A stretch of 32,910 nucleotides of DNA from Candidatus Hydrogenedentota bacterium. Its GTDB lineage: Bacteria; Hydrogenedentota; Hydrogenedentia; Hydrogenedentales; SLHB01. Location of the stretch: assembly GCA_019695095.1 (NCBI GenBank), contig JAIBAQ010000058.1, forward strand, positions 1-32,910. Direction: 5' to 3'. The stretch's first letter is position 1, and every line of letters begins with the position of its first letter. The notes under the pieces are model-generated. The model made no database searches. It worked only from the letters and a program-made list of their open reading frames with translations, and had not been told where the DNA came from. A program made the position numbers and the translations under genes. Positions 25,420 through 32,910 of this stretch are shown piece by piece.

Positions 25420-25469
25420 TGACACCCGCTCCGCGCCCCTATCATGGCCTTCCATGCGGGACTATCTCC

Positions 25470-25653
25470 GGATTTCTCACGAACACACTTTACCTTCTCT
25501 CGCAACCAGTGCGTTTGCGGGACTTACGCCGAAAAACCAGGCAGCTCTCTGAAGACAGTGTGTGTTCGCGAGAAATCCACATGGCATAGCCTCAAAGTCT
25601 TGCTCGTGAGCAATTTGCATCAGCGTTCAATAGCGCCGATTCAAATTGCGGAC
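25470..25653 (+). repeat. Structured 184-bp repeat element, copy E1
   Basis: First of three gapless-alignable copies. Its 109-bp core (25470-25578) starts GGATTTCTCACGAACACACT and ends with the near-complement ...TTCGCGAGAAATCC. A 75-bp tail follows, containing a 40-nt hairpin at 25610-25649 (GCAATTTG ... CAAATTGC). It matches copy E2 at 88/109 core and 64/75 tail positions by hand count. It lies upstream of the ELWxxDGT gene, antisense to it. An 8-bp direct repeat ATCTCCGG occurs at 25464-25471 and 25655-25662, possibly a target-site duplication. In the rest of this gap (25654-25772), beyond that repeat, I see nothing interpretable. Confidence 0.85.
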
Positions 25654-25772
25654 CATCTCCGGCTTGCATAATCACGCAAACACCCTCTGCGGACAACGCT
25701 GCAATCCGCCGCATGGTGCTTTCAGTTCGCAATACCCATCGCTCCAGAGATTGCCGCTTTTCCGTAAGCAGA

Positions 25773-27869
25773 CTAGCGACTCAGCTCCCGAGACTCGAAC
25801 CGCAAGACGATACCGCGCTCCACATCGAGCAGCGTGGGGCTTCCCCAGTAGGCAACTGGCGTCGAATTTATCTCTTCGCCTGCCCGGCGAAGACTGCACG
25901 TCATTCTCCATCGCTGCTCATCTACAGGGATCTGCGCCGGAGCCATTCCCTCGAACGGGACACATATCTCGGCACTCCACCGGTTGCCGTCCTGCACAAT
26001 GCACCCCTGCCAATCGCATTGCCAGGGAACCTGCTGCTGTCGAACCAAGTTCAACGTGTTAACGACTTGTTGGCCTTGGATTCGGGCCATCCACCTCGGC
26101 GAGTCCGCCGTGCGCACATCGAATAGGCGCAATAACCCAATCTCCGCAAAAGTCGCGGATGGAATAGCTTCACCCCGAATTCCTACGTACAGGGCCTTCA
26201 CGCTATACCTCAATTCTAGCATCGAGCCCTTCGCGCCTTCTGAATCCAAGCGACCTGCGTCCAGGGTGTCGCCGGTCAACGGGGACTCCCACATAGGTTC
26301 ATCCAAGACGCCGTCCACGACGACTGGTGTCCTCGTTTCGTCAACAAATGGAACCTTCACAATGCGAGTCGTTCGACTCAACCAGGTATTTTCGAATTCG
26401 TCGAGCCAATCCGCATTGCGGGGCTGGAGCTCATTGTATAGTAGAGCGGAAATGTAGTCGGCCTGCTTCAGTCTGTCCAGAAATGCTTGGCTACCCCCAA
26501 CGCCCTTGGACGGACGCATGAATAACGCCCTGGTCCACTTCTCCCCGTCCAGCACATCCCTGAATGTAAGCGTGACGCCAAATTCGCTGTGCGCCTTGTC
26601 AAACCGTCCGACCCCGCTGCATTCACCGTATTGAAACAATCTTGCTGTCGGATCGCTATACTCGGCCCAACGCCCGTCCAAATCGATATGACCATCATCC
26701 CGTCGCGTCGCACGCATCATCCAAAGGTGCGTATCGCCCGTCGCTAATACGCGCCAAGTGCCAGGGGCTCCGGAAGGCTCGATCAGACAGTGGGCGCTCC
26801 AGACCGACGGACCGGCTGGGTCCAGTGTGTCAAACACGGTCGGTTTGGTCAGATCCAATGCTTCGGGTCCGGCGTCTCTGCTATACGTGTTGATGGCCCA
26901 GATTGCCCAACCTAAGACAATTGTCAAAACCGCTGGCATCCATGCTCTGCGCAAGAACCGCGTCGCTCTCTGGCGCATGAGCGATTTCGGTTTTGCCATG
27001 CGAGGAACAAGTGTTGCCCCACTCAGCCTGCTTGCCCGCTCAAATTCCGGCGATTTTTGCAGGCGGTCCAGCGCTGCCGAAGCGTCGGGGGTCCGTGCAT
27101 TGAGGTCGTGTATCAGCATGGCATCAACGGCATTACTCAGTTCCGGCGACACATTGGATACCAATTCAGAGAGGGGTGGAATCGGCTTCGCAAGCATCTG
27201 CTTCAACAGGGCCAACGGCGTTTCCGCGTCGTAGGGCAGCTTTCCCGCCAGCTTTTCGTACAACACCATCCCAACGGAATACACGTCCCAAGCTGGTGTC
27301 GGTTCCAGACCCTCCCATGCTTCTGGCGGCGCGTACATGGGAGTTCCGACAAACATGCAGGAGGAAGAAGTGCTTCGAAGAGAAGTGGACTGGTGAACCG
27401 CCAGTAGTTTGGCCAGTCCAAAGTCCGATAGTAACGCGCGCCCGTCGGTCGACAATAGAATATTGCTGGGCTTCACGTCCCGATGAACAATCTCAGCATC
27501 GTGGCAGCGCTCAAGACCACTCAGCACATCGACGGTCCAGCGCAGCGCCTGCTCAATGCTCGCCGAAGAGTTGATCAGCGGGCCGCCATCGATGTAGGCC
27601 ATATCGATCGCGAGATCGCCATCGATGTTTTCCAACGCGTGAATAGGGACAATGTTAGGATGCTGCAATCGAGCGATGGTCTTCGCTTCTTGACGGAAGC
27701 GCGCGCCAAAATCAGGGTCCGTTACGATACTTCGGTCGAGAATCTTCAGCGCCACTTCCCGGCCCAGTGTCTCGTCCTCGGCAAGGTACACTACACCCAT
27801 CGCCCCCCTGCCCAGGAAGCGAATGAATCGGTATTTGCCAAAGCGGTGACCAGCCTCAAAATGCGGCAA
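25773..27869 (-). CDS. Transmembrane Ser/Thr protein kinase with CBM9-like extracytoplasmic tail
   Basis: 698 residues. The kinase domain (11-280) has the glycine loop LGRGAMGVVY (19-28), ATP-binding Lys42 (VALKIL), HRDVKPSN with catalytic Asp131, DFG with Asp149 and GTPMYAPPE. All expected PknB/Hanks-type residues are present. A membrane helix at about 310-327 (WMPAVLTIVLGWAIWAIN) follows a basic stretch. The outside part has an unidentified region (340-500), then about 510-695 beginning VVVDGVLDEPMWESP, which fits the carbohydrate-binding family 9-like fold. This gives a sensor-kinase-like architecture with a possible glycan ligand. The start is TTG at 27867-27869 with only a weak ribosome site. 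No in-frame ATG precedes the glycine loop. The start codon lies 15 nt from the end of element copy E3. Confidence 0.9.
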   Translation of the reverse strand: MPHFEAGHRFGKYRFIRFLGRGAMGVVYLAEDETLGREVALKILDRSIVTDPDFGARFRQEAKTIARLQHPNIVPIHALENIDGDLAIDMAYIDGGPLINSSASIEQALRWTVDVLSGLERCHDAEIVHRDVKPSNILLSTDGRALLSDFGLAKLLAVHQSTSLRSTSSSCMFVGTPMYAPPEAWEGLEPTPAWDVYSVGMVLYEKLAGKLPYDAETPLALLKQMLAKPIPPLSELVSNVSPELSNAVDAMLIHDLNARTPDASAALDRLQKSPEFERASRLSGATLVPRMAKPKSLMRQRATRFLRRAWMPAVLTIVLGWAIWAINTYSRDAGPEALDLTKPTVFDTLDPAGPSVWSAHCLIEPSGAPGTWRVLATGDTHLWMMRATRRDDGHIDLDGRWAEYSDPTARLFQYGECSGVGRFDKAHSEFGVTLTFRDVLDGEKWTRALFMRPSKGVGGSQAFLDRLKQADYISALLYNELQPRNADWLDEFENTWLSRTTRIVKVPFVDETRTPVVVDGVLDEPMWESPLTGDTLDAGRLDSEGAKGSMLELRYSVKALYVGIRGEAIPSATFAEIGLLRLFDVRTADSPRWMARIQGQQVVNTLNLVRQQQVPWQCDWQGCIVQDGNRWSAEICVPFEGMAPAQIPVDEQRWRMTCSLRRAGEEINSTPVAYWGSPTLLDVERGIVLRFESRELSR

Positions 27870-27884
27870 TTAAAGACCCACCAA

Positions 27885-28068
27885 ACCCGCACAATGCACT
27901 GGCGCATCGGAGCGCCTGCTTACATTGTTCGCCTACAAGACATTGTGGTTATGCCGGGAGGATTTCTCGCGGTCTCACACCGTCTGCAGAGGACTCCGTC
28001 ATTCCCCGTTAAACGTCTCGCAAGCGAACTCATTACGAGAGATCAGGCCGTGAGTCCGTGAGAAATCC
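27885..28068 (-). repeat. Structured 184-bp repeat element, copy E3 (reverse orientation)
   Basis: On the minus strand it starts GGATTTCTCACGGACTCAC at 28068, and the 109-bp core ends at 27960. The 75-bp tail ends at 27885. It is the most diverged copy (about 70/109 core and 51/75 tail positions equal to E2 by hand count) but needs no gaps. The outer arms, the TCTCGTAA/TTGCGAGA hairpin and the tail hairpin (GGCGC/GCGCC plus ACAATGTA/TGCATTGT) are all retained. It reads in the same direction as the kinase gene and ends just before its TTG start, so it could form that gene's 5' leader. The 124 nt between it and E2 (28069-28192) hold nothing I recognise. Confidence 0.8.
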
Positions 28069-28192
28069 GACCGAATTTCACAAACAAGCCACGTCCAATA
28101 GTATCATTTGGAGAGAAGTTTTTCGACGCGGACTCCACACACCATGAAACCACGAGCGGCCTGATGACCTCTTGAGACGGCAAGTCTACCCC

Positions 28193-28376
28193 GGATTTCT
28201 CACGAACACACTTGAACCCCTCTCGTAACCGCTGTGTTTGCGAGACTTGCGGCGAGAAACAAGGCGTTTCTCCGAGAACAGAGTGTGTCCGCGAGAAATC
28301 CTCATGGCATAACCTAAAAGTCTTGCACGTGAGCAATTTGCGTCGGCGCTCAATCGCGCCGGTGCAGATTGCGGAC
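28193..28376 (+). repeat. Structured 184-bp repeat element, copy E2
   Basis: The core is 28193-28301 (109 bp) and the tail 28302-28376. The outer stem pairs positions 1-20 with 90-109, with 18 of 20 Watson-Crick pairs. An inner hairpin TCTCGTAA/TTGCGAGA sits at core positions 29-36/46-53, and a second hairpin GAGAAAC/GTTTCTC at 62-68/74-80. The 40-nt tail hairpin is at 28333-28372. The last base coincides with the metalloprotease stop codon (28376-28378), so it begins directly at that gene's 3' end, in antisense orientation. It points away from E3. Confidence 0.85.
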
Positions 28377-31300
28377 TACTGCTTTCTTGCTCGTCGGACT
28401 ATGACGGTACCAACAGCAAGTAGCACCAATGCGACCGGCCATGCTGCAATGGGCACCGCGGAGCTCTCTGCCTCCACGATCACCGTCCGCGTAACGCTAT
28501 CGGCCGCATTGCCCGCCGCGTCCGTCACGTTGTACGTCACCGTGTATGTCCCCAGCGAATTCGTATCCACCAGGTTACTGTCATCAACCACGCTGCCGCT
28601 GATGTCTCCATCGATATTGTCCGATGCCGTCGCACCCGCTTCGAAATAGGCATTGCCTTCCGTCACGTAGACTGGATTGCTGCCGACCAGTGTGATCACC
28701 GGCTTTGTATTGTCCACCGTGAACGTGCCGCTTGGACCTGCTGCGGGGGCGCTGTTGCTTGAACTGTCCAACGCGGTCCCCGATGCAATACCAATCGCCA
28801 AGGTCCCGTCGCCCGTGATACCACTTATTGTCACCGTCCGGGTCTGCGCATCTTTCGCTTTCGCGCCGGACACGTTTACTGTCCCCGTCGCTGTACCGGT
28901 CGTTACCAGCGAAACATCCGTCTCGTCCAGCGAAATCGAGGCCGCGTTGTCGTAGGTTATGGTGTACGACACCGGCCCACTCTTGGTCAGCATCGAAGAC
29001 GGCGCCCCGATGTTGACAGCTATCGCCGTGTTATCCACGGTAAACGTCGCGCTTGGACCTGCCGCCGGAGCCTTGTTGCCTGCGTAGTCGAACGCGGTAT
29101 CCGCGGCAAGCGAGATTCCCAGTGTGCCGTTACCGGTAATGCTTGAAAGCGTAATCGTACGCGCAGAACTGCCAAGCCCACTCAGGGTTATGGTCGCATT
29201 GGCATCACCGGTAGCGTTAAGGCTTACATCCCCATTGTCCAAAGTGACCACGCTTGCTTCAGTATAGGTTACGCTGAACGTCACCGGTCCCGTTGCCGTT
29301 ACCGTCGACGATGGAGCGCTGATACTCACGGTTGGCGGCGTCGCGTCTATGGTGATGGACTTACTGTCGCTCGCTGACCAGTTGCCCGCGTTATCGCGTT
29401 CCTGCACATATAACGTCTGGGCGCCCTCGGACAATGCAGTCACGGGTGTATACGACAAGCTCGTCGTCGTGGTCCATGCTCCCGCCTGGCTATTCAATTG
29501 GTAACGGTACGTCCCGTTACCGCCCCCGCCACCTGAAGTCCACGACCAGGTCGGCGTTGTGTCGTTCGTCGGCGAAGTGCCAGATACATTGGGCGCATTG
29601 GGAGGCGTGGCATCCAACGCAATCGCGAAGCTGCCGCTTGCCGACCAATTACCTACCGCATCGCGCTCCTGCACATACAACGTATACGTTGCGTCGGATA
29701 GCGGCGTCGCCGGTGTATAGGAAAGACTCGTCGTTGTTGTCCACGCTCCCGCCTGGCTGTTCAACTGGTAACGGTACGTCCCATTCCCTCCTCCACCGCC
29801 AGAACTCCACGACCAGGTCGGCGTCGTGTCGTTTGTCGGAGTTGTCCCCGTCACACTCGGCGCATTCGGCGCGGTGGTATCAATCGTAATCGTGTAGCTT
29901 CCGCTCGCGGACCAATTGCCCGCAGCATCGCGCTCCTGCACGTACAAGGTGTGCGCCGCAGCAGACAGAGCTGTCGCGGGCGTGTACGAAAGACTCGTTG
30001 TCGTTGTCCATGCTCCCGATTGGCTGTCCAACTGATACCGGTATGTCCCGTTTCCTCCGTTGCCCCCGGAACTCCACGACCACGTTGGCGTCGTATCGTT
30101 CGTCGGTGTCGTTCCCGTCACGCTCGGTGCGTTCGGCGCGGACTTGTCGATGGTGTAAACCTCTCCAGAAGAGAAACTGCCGTTTCCCGAACCCACGCCT
30201 CCGAGCTTCTCTCCATTTCCGTCTACGATCGAATCGTTGTCGACTACATCGAGACGGATGGTCCCGCTGCCTGTTCCTGTCGACACCGAAACGGTCCTTG
30301 TCGCTCCCGCGTCCGCGCTTACTGACGTGATTGACGCGCCAGTCACACCGCTGGCGCTAAGGGAGAGATCCGTGGCATCTACACCGGTCACAGCCTTATT
30401 GAACGTCACCGTGAAGTCTACAGAAGCCGCGTTGGTTGGCGAAGTTCCCACTCGCACAACAGAATTCACTGCCGGATACGGGCTACTCAGCAGGACGACC
30501 TGGTTCAGGTCTTCGGGAAGAGCGGAAAAAGCTCCCGCACCGTCGAAGTCGATGTAACTCCGCCCGGAGTAATTCCCCGCGTATTCCACGCCCGCGGGAA
30601 AACCGAAGCTCGCGTTTACAATTTTCAGTACCATCACCCGGTCGCTGGAAGCGGGAAACGATTGCGGCGTGCTAAGCAGAAACCGGTTCCACCCCGCGGT
30701 GGCGCTAAAGCCTGTCTGGCTATAGAGGAGCGTGGTAGGCACTCCTCCAGATATCGTCGAATACAGATAGAAGTCAACGGTCGCGGAAGAATCATTGATG
30801 TACACCTCAAATCCATCGAGGCTATTCATCGTGGTGTCGTTCGTAACCTGCAGCGCTGTCCACGCGGTGGACGATGAATACCCAAAGGCATACCCCGTCG
30901 CGCCATTCTCGTCGTAGCGTACGTGGTCGCCCATGCCTCCCGTAGCACTGGGCACGATGTTGGCCGTCATGCTCGCGCCCGAACTCGAAATACTCGTAAC
31001 AGCTATTCCAGTCGCGGTATTGGTGTAGTCTTTCGAATTGGGATTACTGGTATTGTTGAACGTCGTATTGTTCATAATTCCCGGATACGTATCCCCGGCA
31101 TCGCCCCGATTCGTCAGCAGATCAAGTCCATTTAGACCGTCAGCTTCTTCAAGATCCACCCACTTGTGCGACTCATCGGTGTTGTCTGTCATCCGATCGT
31201 CTACGTGCCAAATCAGTAGCCCATTTCCCGGAAGGCCCGCATCGAAACCGGATTGCTGCCGATTCTCAATCAGGAAGTACTCCCCGATCCGGTACTTGTC

Positions 31301-32596
31301 CACCCACAACCGCAAGATGGACGCATTGCTGCTTCCTTCAAGAATGTTGGCGCCAGTCGTGCTGGAGAGAACATCTGTCGGCGTCACAATGTCCAAGGCT
31401 GACTTGCACCACGCCGACAAGTGCGCGGGAGAATCTCCTGCCCAAGTCCCGATGTAGTTCCAACTGCCTCCTCCCATGAGTCCCCAGTTGCCGATACCCT
31501 CCGAGCTCTCATCCGTGTCGTAGAGGTCGGGCAATTCCAGCATAAGGTGCCCCAGCTCATGACACATGATCCCAATGGTTGCCATGTGGTTATCATCGGC
31601 ATCGCTTCGGTGACGTTCTCCGAACATGGTGTAAGGCTGCAGATTGACGCCATCCAACATCAGCGCGGACGACAGCGTCCATGCATGTCCCCACACCTTC
31701 GGCGTATACGTTCCGCCGTAAGCATTTTCATATCCCGCGAGAATCATCACGATCGCAAGTTCGTCGGACGTAATCGTTCCATCCGAATTGCTGTCGAAGG
31801 TCGCGTAGTTCACATACGAATTCGCGGCGCTCAGAATAGCGCTCGCTTCCGGCCGCGAGTCGCCGCCTCCCATGTTTGGATGAACAACAGGCCGCGTGAT
31901 ATGCACGATCCCATCGTTGGCAGTCCCATACGTCTCGTTCGCGGTCGTCACCGTAAATGTGCCATACGTATTCTCTAGATAGAACTCTTTTACGCTGTTG
32001 CTCGCCCCGTATATCGCGCTCTGGAAATTCGCGTCCGTGTACGCGAACGAAATATTCGTGTAATTCACGAGAATCGTCAGCACCGGCTGCGTATGCACCA
32101 ACGACTTTGTCGCGCCGGCGCCAAGAGTACGCGGAACAGTCTTCTCAAAGGCACGCGGGTCAACCGGTGGCCTCAGATGTCGAGGCATTGAGGACAACGT
32201 CTTCTCGGAAAGCGTCCCAACCTCGTTCGGAGACGCCGTCAGCTGCCCCGTCGCGGACTTCTCGGCGTAGTACCATGTTCCCGTCTGTTCCAGAATCGTG
32301 TAGCCTTCTTCCGTCTCATACCAGTTCGAGAATTCGTCGCCCCGGAGCTGGGCCTTAAAGTTCGATCCATCCGGCTGTTTCAACGTGATATCTATCGGAG
32401 CAGCTGGCGCCGCATAGGATTCCGGCGCTGCGAAGGCAAACAATAGAAGGATGGAGACTAGCGTTGCGCACAGCGCAAATCGTGTTACTCGGATCCGGCC
32501 CAATGCCTGTTTGATGGAATATATCCGTACCGCGTGCGCAAGCGTTGCGGATTGGGGGTTGCTTATGAGCAATGTGGGCCTAACGGAGTACTGCAT
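28376..32596 (-). CDS. Secreted M6-family metalloprotease with Ig-like repeats and C-terminal anchor
   Basis: 1406 residues. I chose the ATG at 32596 because AGGAG lies 6 nt upstream. A TTG 21 nt earlier is less likely. A long signal sequence has its hydrophobic core at about 40-58 (ALCATLVSILLLFAFAAPES). The M6 catalytic domain has HELGHLMLELPDLYD (zinc ligands His346/His350, Glu347, and Asp357), preceded by an EF-hand-like loop DSNSDGTITSDE near 268-279. After it come an Ig-like domain (PTNAASVDFTVTFNKAV), three 89-residue NDTTPTWSW repeats, two copies of a VSISAPSSTVT-type domain and a DUF5011-like domain (VITLVGSNPVYVTEGN...). The C-terminus VPIAAWPVALVLLAVGTVIVRRARKQ is a hydrophobic helix with a basic end, like a sorting or anchoring signal. 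Probably a cell-surface protease. Confidence 0.9.
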   Translation of the reverse strand: MQYSVRPTLLISNPQSATLAHAVRIYSIKQALGRIRVTRFALCATLVSILLLFAFAAPESYAAPAAPIDITLKQPDGSNFKAQLRGDEFSNWYETEEGYTILEQTGTWYYAEKSATGQLTASPNEVGTLSEKTLSSMPRHLRPPVDPRAFEKTVPRTLGAGATKSLVHTQPVLTILVNYTNISFAYTDANFQSAIYGASNSVKEFYLENTYGTFTVTTANETYGTANDGIVHITRPVVHPNMGGGDSRPEASAILSAANSYVNYATFDSNSDGTITSDELAIVMILAGYENAYGGTYTPKVWGHAWTLSSALMLDGVNLQPYTMFGERHRSDADDNHMATIGIMCHELGHLMLELPDLYDTDESSEGIGNWGLMGGGSWNYIGTWAGDSPAHLSAWCKSALDIVTPTDVLSSTTGANILEGSSNASILRLWVDKYRIGEYFLIENRQQSGFDAGLPGNGLLIWHVDDRMTDNTDESHKWVDLEEADGLNGLDLLTNRGDAGDTYPGIMNNTTFNNTSNPNSKDYTNTATGIAVTSISSSGASMTANIVPSATGGMGDHVRYDENGATGYAFGYSSSTAWTALQVTNDTTMNSLDGFEVYINDSSATVDFYLYSTISGGVPTTLLYSQTGFSATAGWNRFLLSTPQSFPASSDRVMVLKIVNASFGFPAGVEYAGNYSGRSYIDFDGAGAFSALPEDLNQVVLLSSPYPAVNSVVRVGTSPTNAASVDFTVTFNKAVTGVDATDLSLSASGVTGASITSVSADAGATRTVSVSTGTGSGTIRLDVVDNDSIVDGNGEKLGGVGSGNGSFSSGEVYTIDKSAPNAPSVTGTTPTNDTTPTWSWSSGGNGGNGTYRYQLDSQSGAWTTTTSLSYTPATALSAAAHTLYVQERDAAGNWSASGSYTITIDTTAPNAPSVTGTTPTNDTTPTWSWSSGGGGGNGTYRYQLNSQAGAWTTTTSLSYTPATPLSDATYTLYVQERDAVGNWSASGSFAIALDATPPNAPNVSGTSPTNDTTPTWSWTSGGGGGNGTYRYQLNSQAGAWTTTTSLSYTPVTALSEGAQTLYVQERDNAGNWSASDSKSITIDATPPTVSISAPSSTVTATGPVTFSVTYTEASVVTLDNGDVSLNATGDANATITLSGLGSSARTITLSSITGNGTLGISLAADTAFDYAGNKAPAAGPSATFTVDNTAIAVNIGAPSSMLTKSGPVSYTITYDNAASISLDETDVSLVTTGTATGTVNVSGAKAKDAQTRTVTISGITGDGTLAIGIASGTALDSSSNSAPAAGPSGTFTVDNTKPVITLVGSNPVYVTEGNAYFEAGATASDNIDGDISGSVVDDSNLVDTNSLGTYTVTYNVTDAAGNAADSVTRTVIVEAESSAVPIAAWPVALVLLAVGTVIVRRARKQ
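29339..30139 (-). repeat. Three tandem 267-bp in-frame repeats in the protease gene
   Basis: Three consecutive units of exactly 267 bp (89 codons). For example, the CCTGCAC word recurs at 29401, 29668 and 29935. Each encodes PN(A/V)(P)SVTGT-PTNDTTPTWSW ... YRYQL ... LYVQERD-AGNWSASGS. Conservation at DNA level is high, suggesting recent duplication or gene conversion. Copy number may vary between strains and assemblies may collapse here. Confidence 0.85.
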
Positions 32597-32910
32597 TCCT
32601 TTCTCCTGGACGTCCAACTACCTCTGATCGTGCATGGGACACTTCACATTCTGCGGTACACCGTCCACAGCAACTGCTCTCGCTTGCTTACGTGCTCTAC
32701 ATCTTGCTGCACTCGTAGTCGTCGGAGAGACGAGAATCCTCGTGGCAAAATTCCGACTGGACTTTACTGAGACCGGACCGCCACCCTCTAAGCTGAGCGG
32801 CTCAGTTACGTTATTCCCCCTATTCACCCAGAACCTGAAGCCACCTTCCGGGACACCGGTACTTTACCACAAGATGGGGCGCCGCCACTCAGTGAAGACG
32901 CCTGGCGTGG
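32597..32910. other. Upstream region of the protease gene, to window end
   Basis: 314 nt with no gene I can support. It should contain the minus-strand protease promoter, but no convincing hexamer pair is visible. One perfect odd palindrome, CTGAGC-G-GCTCAG (32793-32805), could be an operator or a small hairpin. It has no T-run, so it is not an intrinsic terminator. A small frame at 32618-32827 (minus) has no family features. Confidence 0.3.

Follow-up and report, generated by a model that had tools for sequence, protein, structure and literature searches.

The window analysed here, a stretch of 32,910 nucleotides from a Candidatus Hydrogenedentota draft genome, carries between 8449 and 13634 the genes for NuoE/NuoF-like fused iron-sulfur flavoprotein subunits followed by that of a 512-aa Fer2/NAD-binding protein, an arrangement that suggests an electron-transfer operon of the hydrogenase or Nuo type. 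Further along lie a kinase ORF (25773-27869, minus strand) and the gene of a bacterial Ig-like surface protein, which contains three tandem 267-bp repeats (29334-30134, 72-74% identical), together with three copies of a repeat, named E1, E2 and E3 (Table 1). E2 sits upstream of the kinase ORF, 15 bp from its called start, and the Ig-like protein ends at E3 in a membrane-anchor-like C-terminus (...VALVLLAVGTVIVRRARKQ) that looks natural. The first-pass annotation had described three gapless copies of 184 bp, and 184 alignment columns are indeed free of gaps; the pair it gave as E1/E2, with about 83% identity, had its labels swapped, since it is E1 and E3 that share 83% identity over 186 bp while E2 is the distant copy. 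Its ends were nearly right: the real left end lies 3 bp further left and the right end is 1 bp shorter, which makes an element of 186 bp.

Table 1. Coordinates of the repeat copies, their target duplications and associated features in the window
Feature	Position	Strand	Remarks
E1 element copy	25466..25652	+	187 bp, one extra base at left end; about 16% from consensus
E1 left target duplication CTAT	25462..25465	+	sequence read and family-wide statistics
E1 right target duplication CCAT, one mismatch	25653..25656	+	
E2 element copy	27886..28071	-	oldest of the three; about 33% from consensus
E2 left target duplication TTCG (minus-strand reading)	28072..28075	-	
E2 right target duplication TTTG, one mismatch	27882..27885	-	
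E3 element copy	28190..28375	+	186 bp; about 6% from consensus
E3 left target duplication CTAC	28186..28189	+	
E3 right target duplication CTAC	28376..28379	+	CTA is antisense of the TAG stop of ORF 28376-32617 (-)
E3 hairpin 1 (GGATTTCTC...GAGAAATCC), 109 bp	28193..28301	+	predicted fold; covariation
E3 hairpin 2 (linker), 31 bp	28302..28332	+	predicted fold
E3 hairpin 3 (GCAATTTGC...GCAGATTGC)	28333..28372	+	predicted fold; covariation
Host gene of E3, bacterial Ig-like surface protein, 1413 aa ORF	28376..32617	-	natural stop is the insertion site

The covariance-model scan that the first-pass annotation had proposed, carried out with a model built from E1, E2 and E3, recovers at least 150 copies in the same draft genome (6.77 Mb, 405 contigs); matches reach E = 1e-53 and the best-scoring ones are mostly 180-185 bp long. 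The left end alone matches at 126 places in this genome with at most one mismatch, against 3 for a reversed-pattern control, and the right end at 123 places, against 2. Diverged homologues were found by the model in 4 of 59 related genomes; these four belong to the same taxonomic family and represent two other genera, and in a fifth related genome (G021) the end search picked up one copy. Every genome used is a draft metagenome assembly. When 84,980 species genomes were scanned for two linked element motifs, only Hydrogenedentota records came back, plus one Thermoflexus match (L199) that on reading has no further resemblance and looks like chance. As had been guessed at first pass, Rfam gave no match, neither over the window at gathering score nor over the element region at E up to 1; plasmid and phage collections hold no similar DNA, and viral contigs lack the end pattern. 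A CRISPR array, an attC site and a riboswitch, already set aside at that stage, are rejected here too, no such structure and no Rfam match being present. The copies are dispersed and of many ages, lying from ~3% to ~32% away from the family consensus, and about 110 of them were studied in detail, a sample in which the oldest are under-represented because ranking went by similarity to E1-E3.

The element measures 186 bp in its own genome (YCCGGATTTCTC...TTGCGGR) and about 182-206 bp in the two other genera, which share its ends and architecture. In 110 distinct copies the sequence bordering YCC-GGATTTCTC... on the left and ...TTGCGGR on the right was compared, and a direct repeat of 4 bp, YTAN, lies immediately outside the two ends: left and right 4-mers are identical in 53 of these copies (2000 shuffles give a mean of 11.4 and at most 21), and the variable fourth base agrees on both sides in 80, with 31 expected. 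On the left this fourth base is A or G in 65 copies and C or T in 45, and no conserved base or information was seen in the flanks outside YTAN. Exact YTAN duplications also border 10 of 16 copies in the related genome G009 and 11 of 16 in genus g5. Read inward, the right end is YCCGCAATTT in the own genome, whose terminal repeat is short and imperfect, and YCCGCATTTCTCAC in the related genera, where YCCGGATTTYTCAC and YCCGCATTTCTCAC make up roughly 14-bp terminal inverted repeats. The strict conservation of length claimed at first pass holds for most copies, but deletions of 51 bp, of 16 bp and larger internal ones recur. Derivatives lacking 51 bp at the tip of the first hairpin (H1) keep both ends and are flanked by CTAG/CTAG or TTAG/TTAG, an element of only 55 bp has both ends and a CTAG/CTAG duplication, and reduced copies of 55-133 bp persist; these derivatives point to the ends as the essential part, though a deletion may in some cases postdate insertion. 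Target duplications decay together with their elements. In these draft assemblies we saw no transposition event, polymorphic site or empty allele of the same site. A repeat shorter than about 500 bp, too short for a transposase, bounded by terminal inverted repeats and a target duplication and dispersed in many copies, is very probably a MITE-like non-autonomous transposable element family, which bears out the first-pass candidate of a non-autonomous element, with copies of many ages and deletion derivatives to go with the 4-bp duplications. Two observations in relatives are worth recording beside it. Single-hairpin versions of about 107-140 bp occur in the related genera (L160, G012:C460, 2930-3068; L165, G020:C537), and the related genome G010 holds a homogeneous family (L225 and L226) whose ends are CCCGGATATCTCACCGG, bordered on either side by CTAG; it includes 18-bp hairpin units between two CTAG, of the type CTAG-CCCGG-ATCTCTCA-CCGGG-CTAG and similar.

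Empty sites were restored in silico, with simple heuristic ORF calling, to see where the copies had landed. In 32 of the 108 copies placed in this way, among them E3, the CTA (or TTA) on the right is exactly the antisense of the TAG (or TAA) stop of an intact gene, and 5 of 108 sit on a sense stop, while the available YTAN sites predict 2.6 and 1.2, respectively; the antisense class is thus in about 12-fold excess. Since the reverse complement of CTA is TAG and YTAN is duplicated, an insertion at TAG or TAA regenerates the stop. The excess stays stable whether the ORF cut-off is set to 100, 150 or 200 aa, and half of the copies in genus g5 (8/16) and 3 of 16 in G009 also lie at stops, a scan in which copy orientation is unreliable because the ends resemble each other. 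The stop-located genes are real and mostly whole: in at least 7 of 10 scanned, the stretch between a Pfam domain and the C-terminus is a few to 14 residues long (enoyl-CoA hydratase, SDR, PdxJ, BacA, GcvH, a PHO4 transporter, a GGDEF protein). No conserved neighbouring gene was seen among them. We are evenly divided on whether this bias reflects survivorship and not targeting, that is, whether other insertions near genes were purged and the stop-restoring ones, being harmless, remained. Insertions inside ORFs are depleted to 0.33-fold and the target is known only as YTAN, with no further base preference, both of which agree with survivorship; taken alone, it offers no obvious reason why exact stops should be enriched over other YTAN sites up to 80 bp downstream of genes (odds ratio 4.4, Fisher p = 6e-6), where damage should be slight too. 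This question concerns the cause of the bias only and is compatible with the MITE-like reading. It is tempting to go further and imagine a system that recognises folded hairpins, cuts with a 4-nt stagger and actively seeks stop codons rebuilt by its own duplication, a self-made safe harbour in gene-dense genomes; we regard this as unlikely. The MIRU of Mycobacterium tuberculosis, small dispersed repeats (Supply and colleagues, 1997), reportedly insert at stops and leave them intact; they sit at overlapping stop/start codons (TGA/ATG) in operons and carry small ORFs. The site used here differs from theirs in being TAG or TAA and in being regenerated by a 4-bp duplication.

Exact and 1-mismatch end searches in 25 draft genomes of the taxonomic family gave, among the matches listed and inspected, no autonomous 1-4 kb element with the family ends, and a search for orphan ends in the own genome gave no autonomous partner; multi-copy insertion sequences are often missing from draft metagenome assemblies. 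The transposase inventory, which is incomplete for the own genome, covered the families PF01609, PF01797, PF13546, PF13586 and PF13359, and loci of the first three were scanned for element ends. In it the own genome (G000) and G009 have no or almost no members of the DDE families PF01609, PF13546, PF13586 and PF13359, the DDE loci scanned have no family ends, and no IS5-type DDE transposase with matching ends was found. The single IS1182-type transposase of the own genome was rejected as a partner, its ends being different (GAGGCTGTCTCAC). Bridge-RNA self-targeting of the IS110 type was rejected as well, the longest match of a copy averaging 6.87 nt to its own flanks and 6.86 nt to those of other copies. 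Because the duplication is fixed at 4 bp, our best guess for the mover is a DDE-type enzyme; the covariation of the stems (see below) is not explained by it, as such an enzyme, working on ends that are double-stranded, would not of itself call for pairing to be kept.

Such covariation, like the position of the hairpins next to a CTAN foot, would suit a REP/REPIN- or IS200/IS605-type element that a tyrosine (HUH, Y1) transposase mobilises in the form of folded single-stranded DNA, and Y1 transposases occur in 6/6 genomes tested, but we consider this origin very unlikely. HUH transposition leaves no target duplication, as is the case for IS200/IS605-derived elements, whereas here a duplication is present and extends to the variable base; the mobilisation through folded DNA put forward at first pass would fit these 4 bp awkwardly, and the tetranucleotide is not the fixed GTAG. 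Moreover, the Y1 loci examined are bounded by unrelated inverted repeats and show neither a model match nor the element ends (YCCGSATTTCTCAC). Y1 genes with terminal inverted repeats of their own are on record (PMC3733652), and the Y1 loci L215, L221, L218, L223 and L216, with their own inverted repeats and hairpins (CCTAGGGC..., CCCAGGG...), resemble the TIRYT elements of that report.

Folding predicts the 109-bp core with inverted arms and two inner hairpins drawn at first pass, and also the 75-bp hairpin tail, which actually consists of two hairpins; the element is an array of three adjacent hairpins, H1 of about 109 bp, H2 of 31 bp and H3 of about 40 bp (60-65 bp in some relatives). As single strands, E3 as DNA (z = -4.1) and most of E1 as RNA (z = -4.3) are more stable than every shuffle, and the pairing of E2 is largely preserved through compensatory changes. 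Across genera the loops are poorly alignable and both main stems persist, with 95.8% of cells paired, compensation in 18 of 30 pairs of the two hairpin stems, and a covariation score of 0.43 against 0.18 when shuffled (0/500 shuffles), a signal that is lost when the partner is slid by one base. Own-genome copies less than 8% from the consensus (n=32) contain 89 uncompensated broken pairs and 0 compensated ones, and private mutations in this genome are not rarer in stems than elsewhere, so that individual copies look to be neutrally decaying and unconstrained. Young copies being uncompensated while genera co-vary, the fold is therefore kept only in lineages that are still moving; the selection on a fold put forward by the first-pass annotation is maintained in active lineages, as the cross-genus covariation shows, and does not extend to individual copies. 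The fold may be used by a transposase acting on folded DNA, or else serve tolerance at the RNA level. That the repeat is primarily a family of functional, structured non-coding RNAs with a regulatory or housekeeping role, spread by duplication, as the first pass had also considered, is highly improbable despite its strong fold and cross-genus compensatory changes: precise ends with matched 4-bp duplications largely refute it, young copies lose pairs without compensation, remnants of 55-133 bp persist, and neither Rfam (E up to 1) nor a conserved neighbour of the stop-located genes speaks for it.

The family is new and the kind of element already known; what is unusual is the multi-hairpin architecture, the covariation across genera and the stop-codon pattern. 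Like the prokaryotic MITEs that have been reviewed (Correia/NEMIS, ERIC, RUP, QMITE; PMC10969869, PMC2229807), it is about 100-200 bp long, lacks a transposase gene, has terminal inverted repeats and target duplications, forms stable hairpins, is mostly intergenic and comes in size variants. It departs from them in its YTAN target instead of TA, in three adjacent hairpins instead of one end-to-end stem, in the exact use of stop codons and in covariation measured here across genera, and no sequence shared with Rfam, plasmids or phages was found. The CIR repeats of Caulobacter and Brucella (PMC2229807) likewise have two independent long hairpin arms and a linker; here, unlike CIR, the consensus is devoid of the GANTC motif that CIR have in a hairpin loop, the linker itself folds, and target duplications, unknown for CIR, are clear. 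IS5 of E. coli, with its YTAR target (PMC10359306), also makes a 4-bp duplication at a YTA-containing site, but the fourth base here is not restricted to A or G and does not follow YTAR. GTAG-tagged REPs and RAYT/TIRYT elements (PMC3733652), of which REPs have been reported in Planctomycetes and Verrucomicrobia, are similarly palindromes with a tetranucleotide foot, often downstream of genes; REP/REPIN repeats with RAYT have a fixed GTAG (or CGTC) tag at one end, whereas here it is NTAG, with a variable N that matches the other side, the tetranucleotide is duplicated on both sides, and the Y1 genes are flanked by other repeats.

Returning to the MITE-like reading, a transposase supplied in trans would insert the element at YTAN, and a staggered cut of 4 bp would leave the direct duplication seen as flanking repeats. 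Where the target is a TAG or TAA stop, the duplication rebuilds it, and copies are found at sites of this kind in strong excess. The inserted copy would then decay free of constraint, as its mutations indicate, and pairing of the hairpins, kept in the moving lineages, may be needed for mobility. The finding adds a large, previously unmatched family of mobile repeats to a little-studied phylum, and it shows that a selfish element can keep a multi-hairpin fold across genera though each of its copies decays. The family may also serve as a warning that a dispersed repeat is not made a functional RNA by deep covariation on its own. It further offers a case, open to measurement, of insertions into stop codons repaired by the target duplication, which, if the bias proves to be targeting, would be a natural route to harmless insertion.
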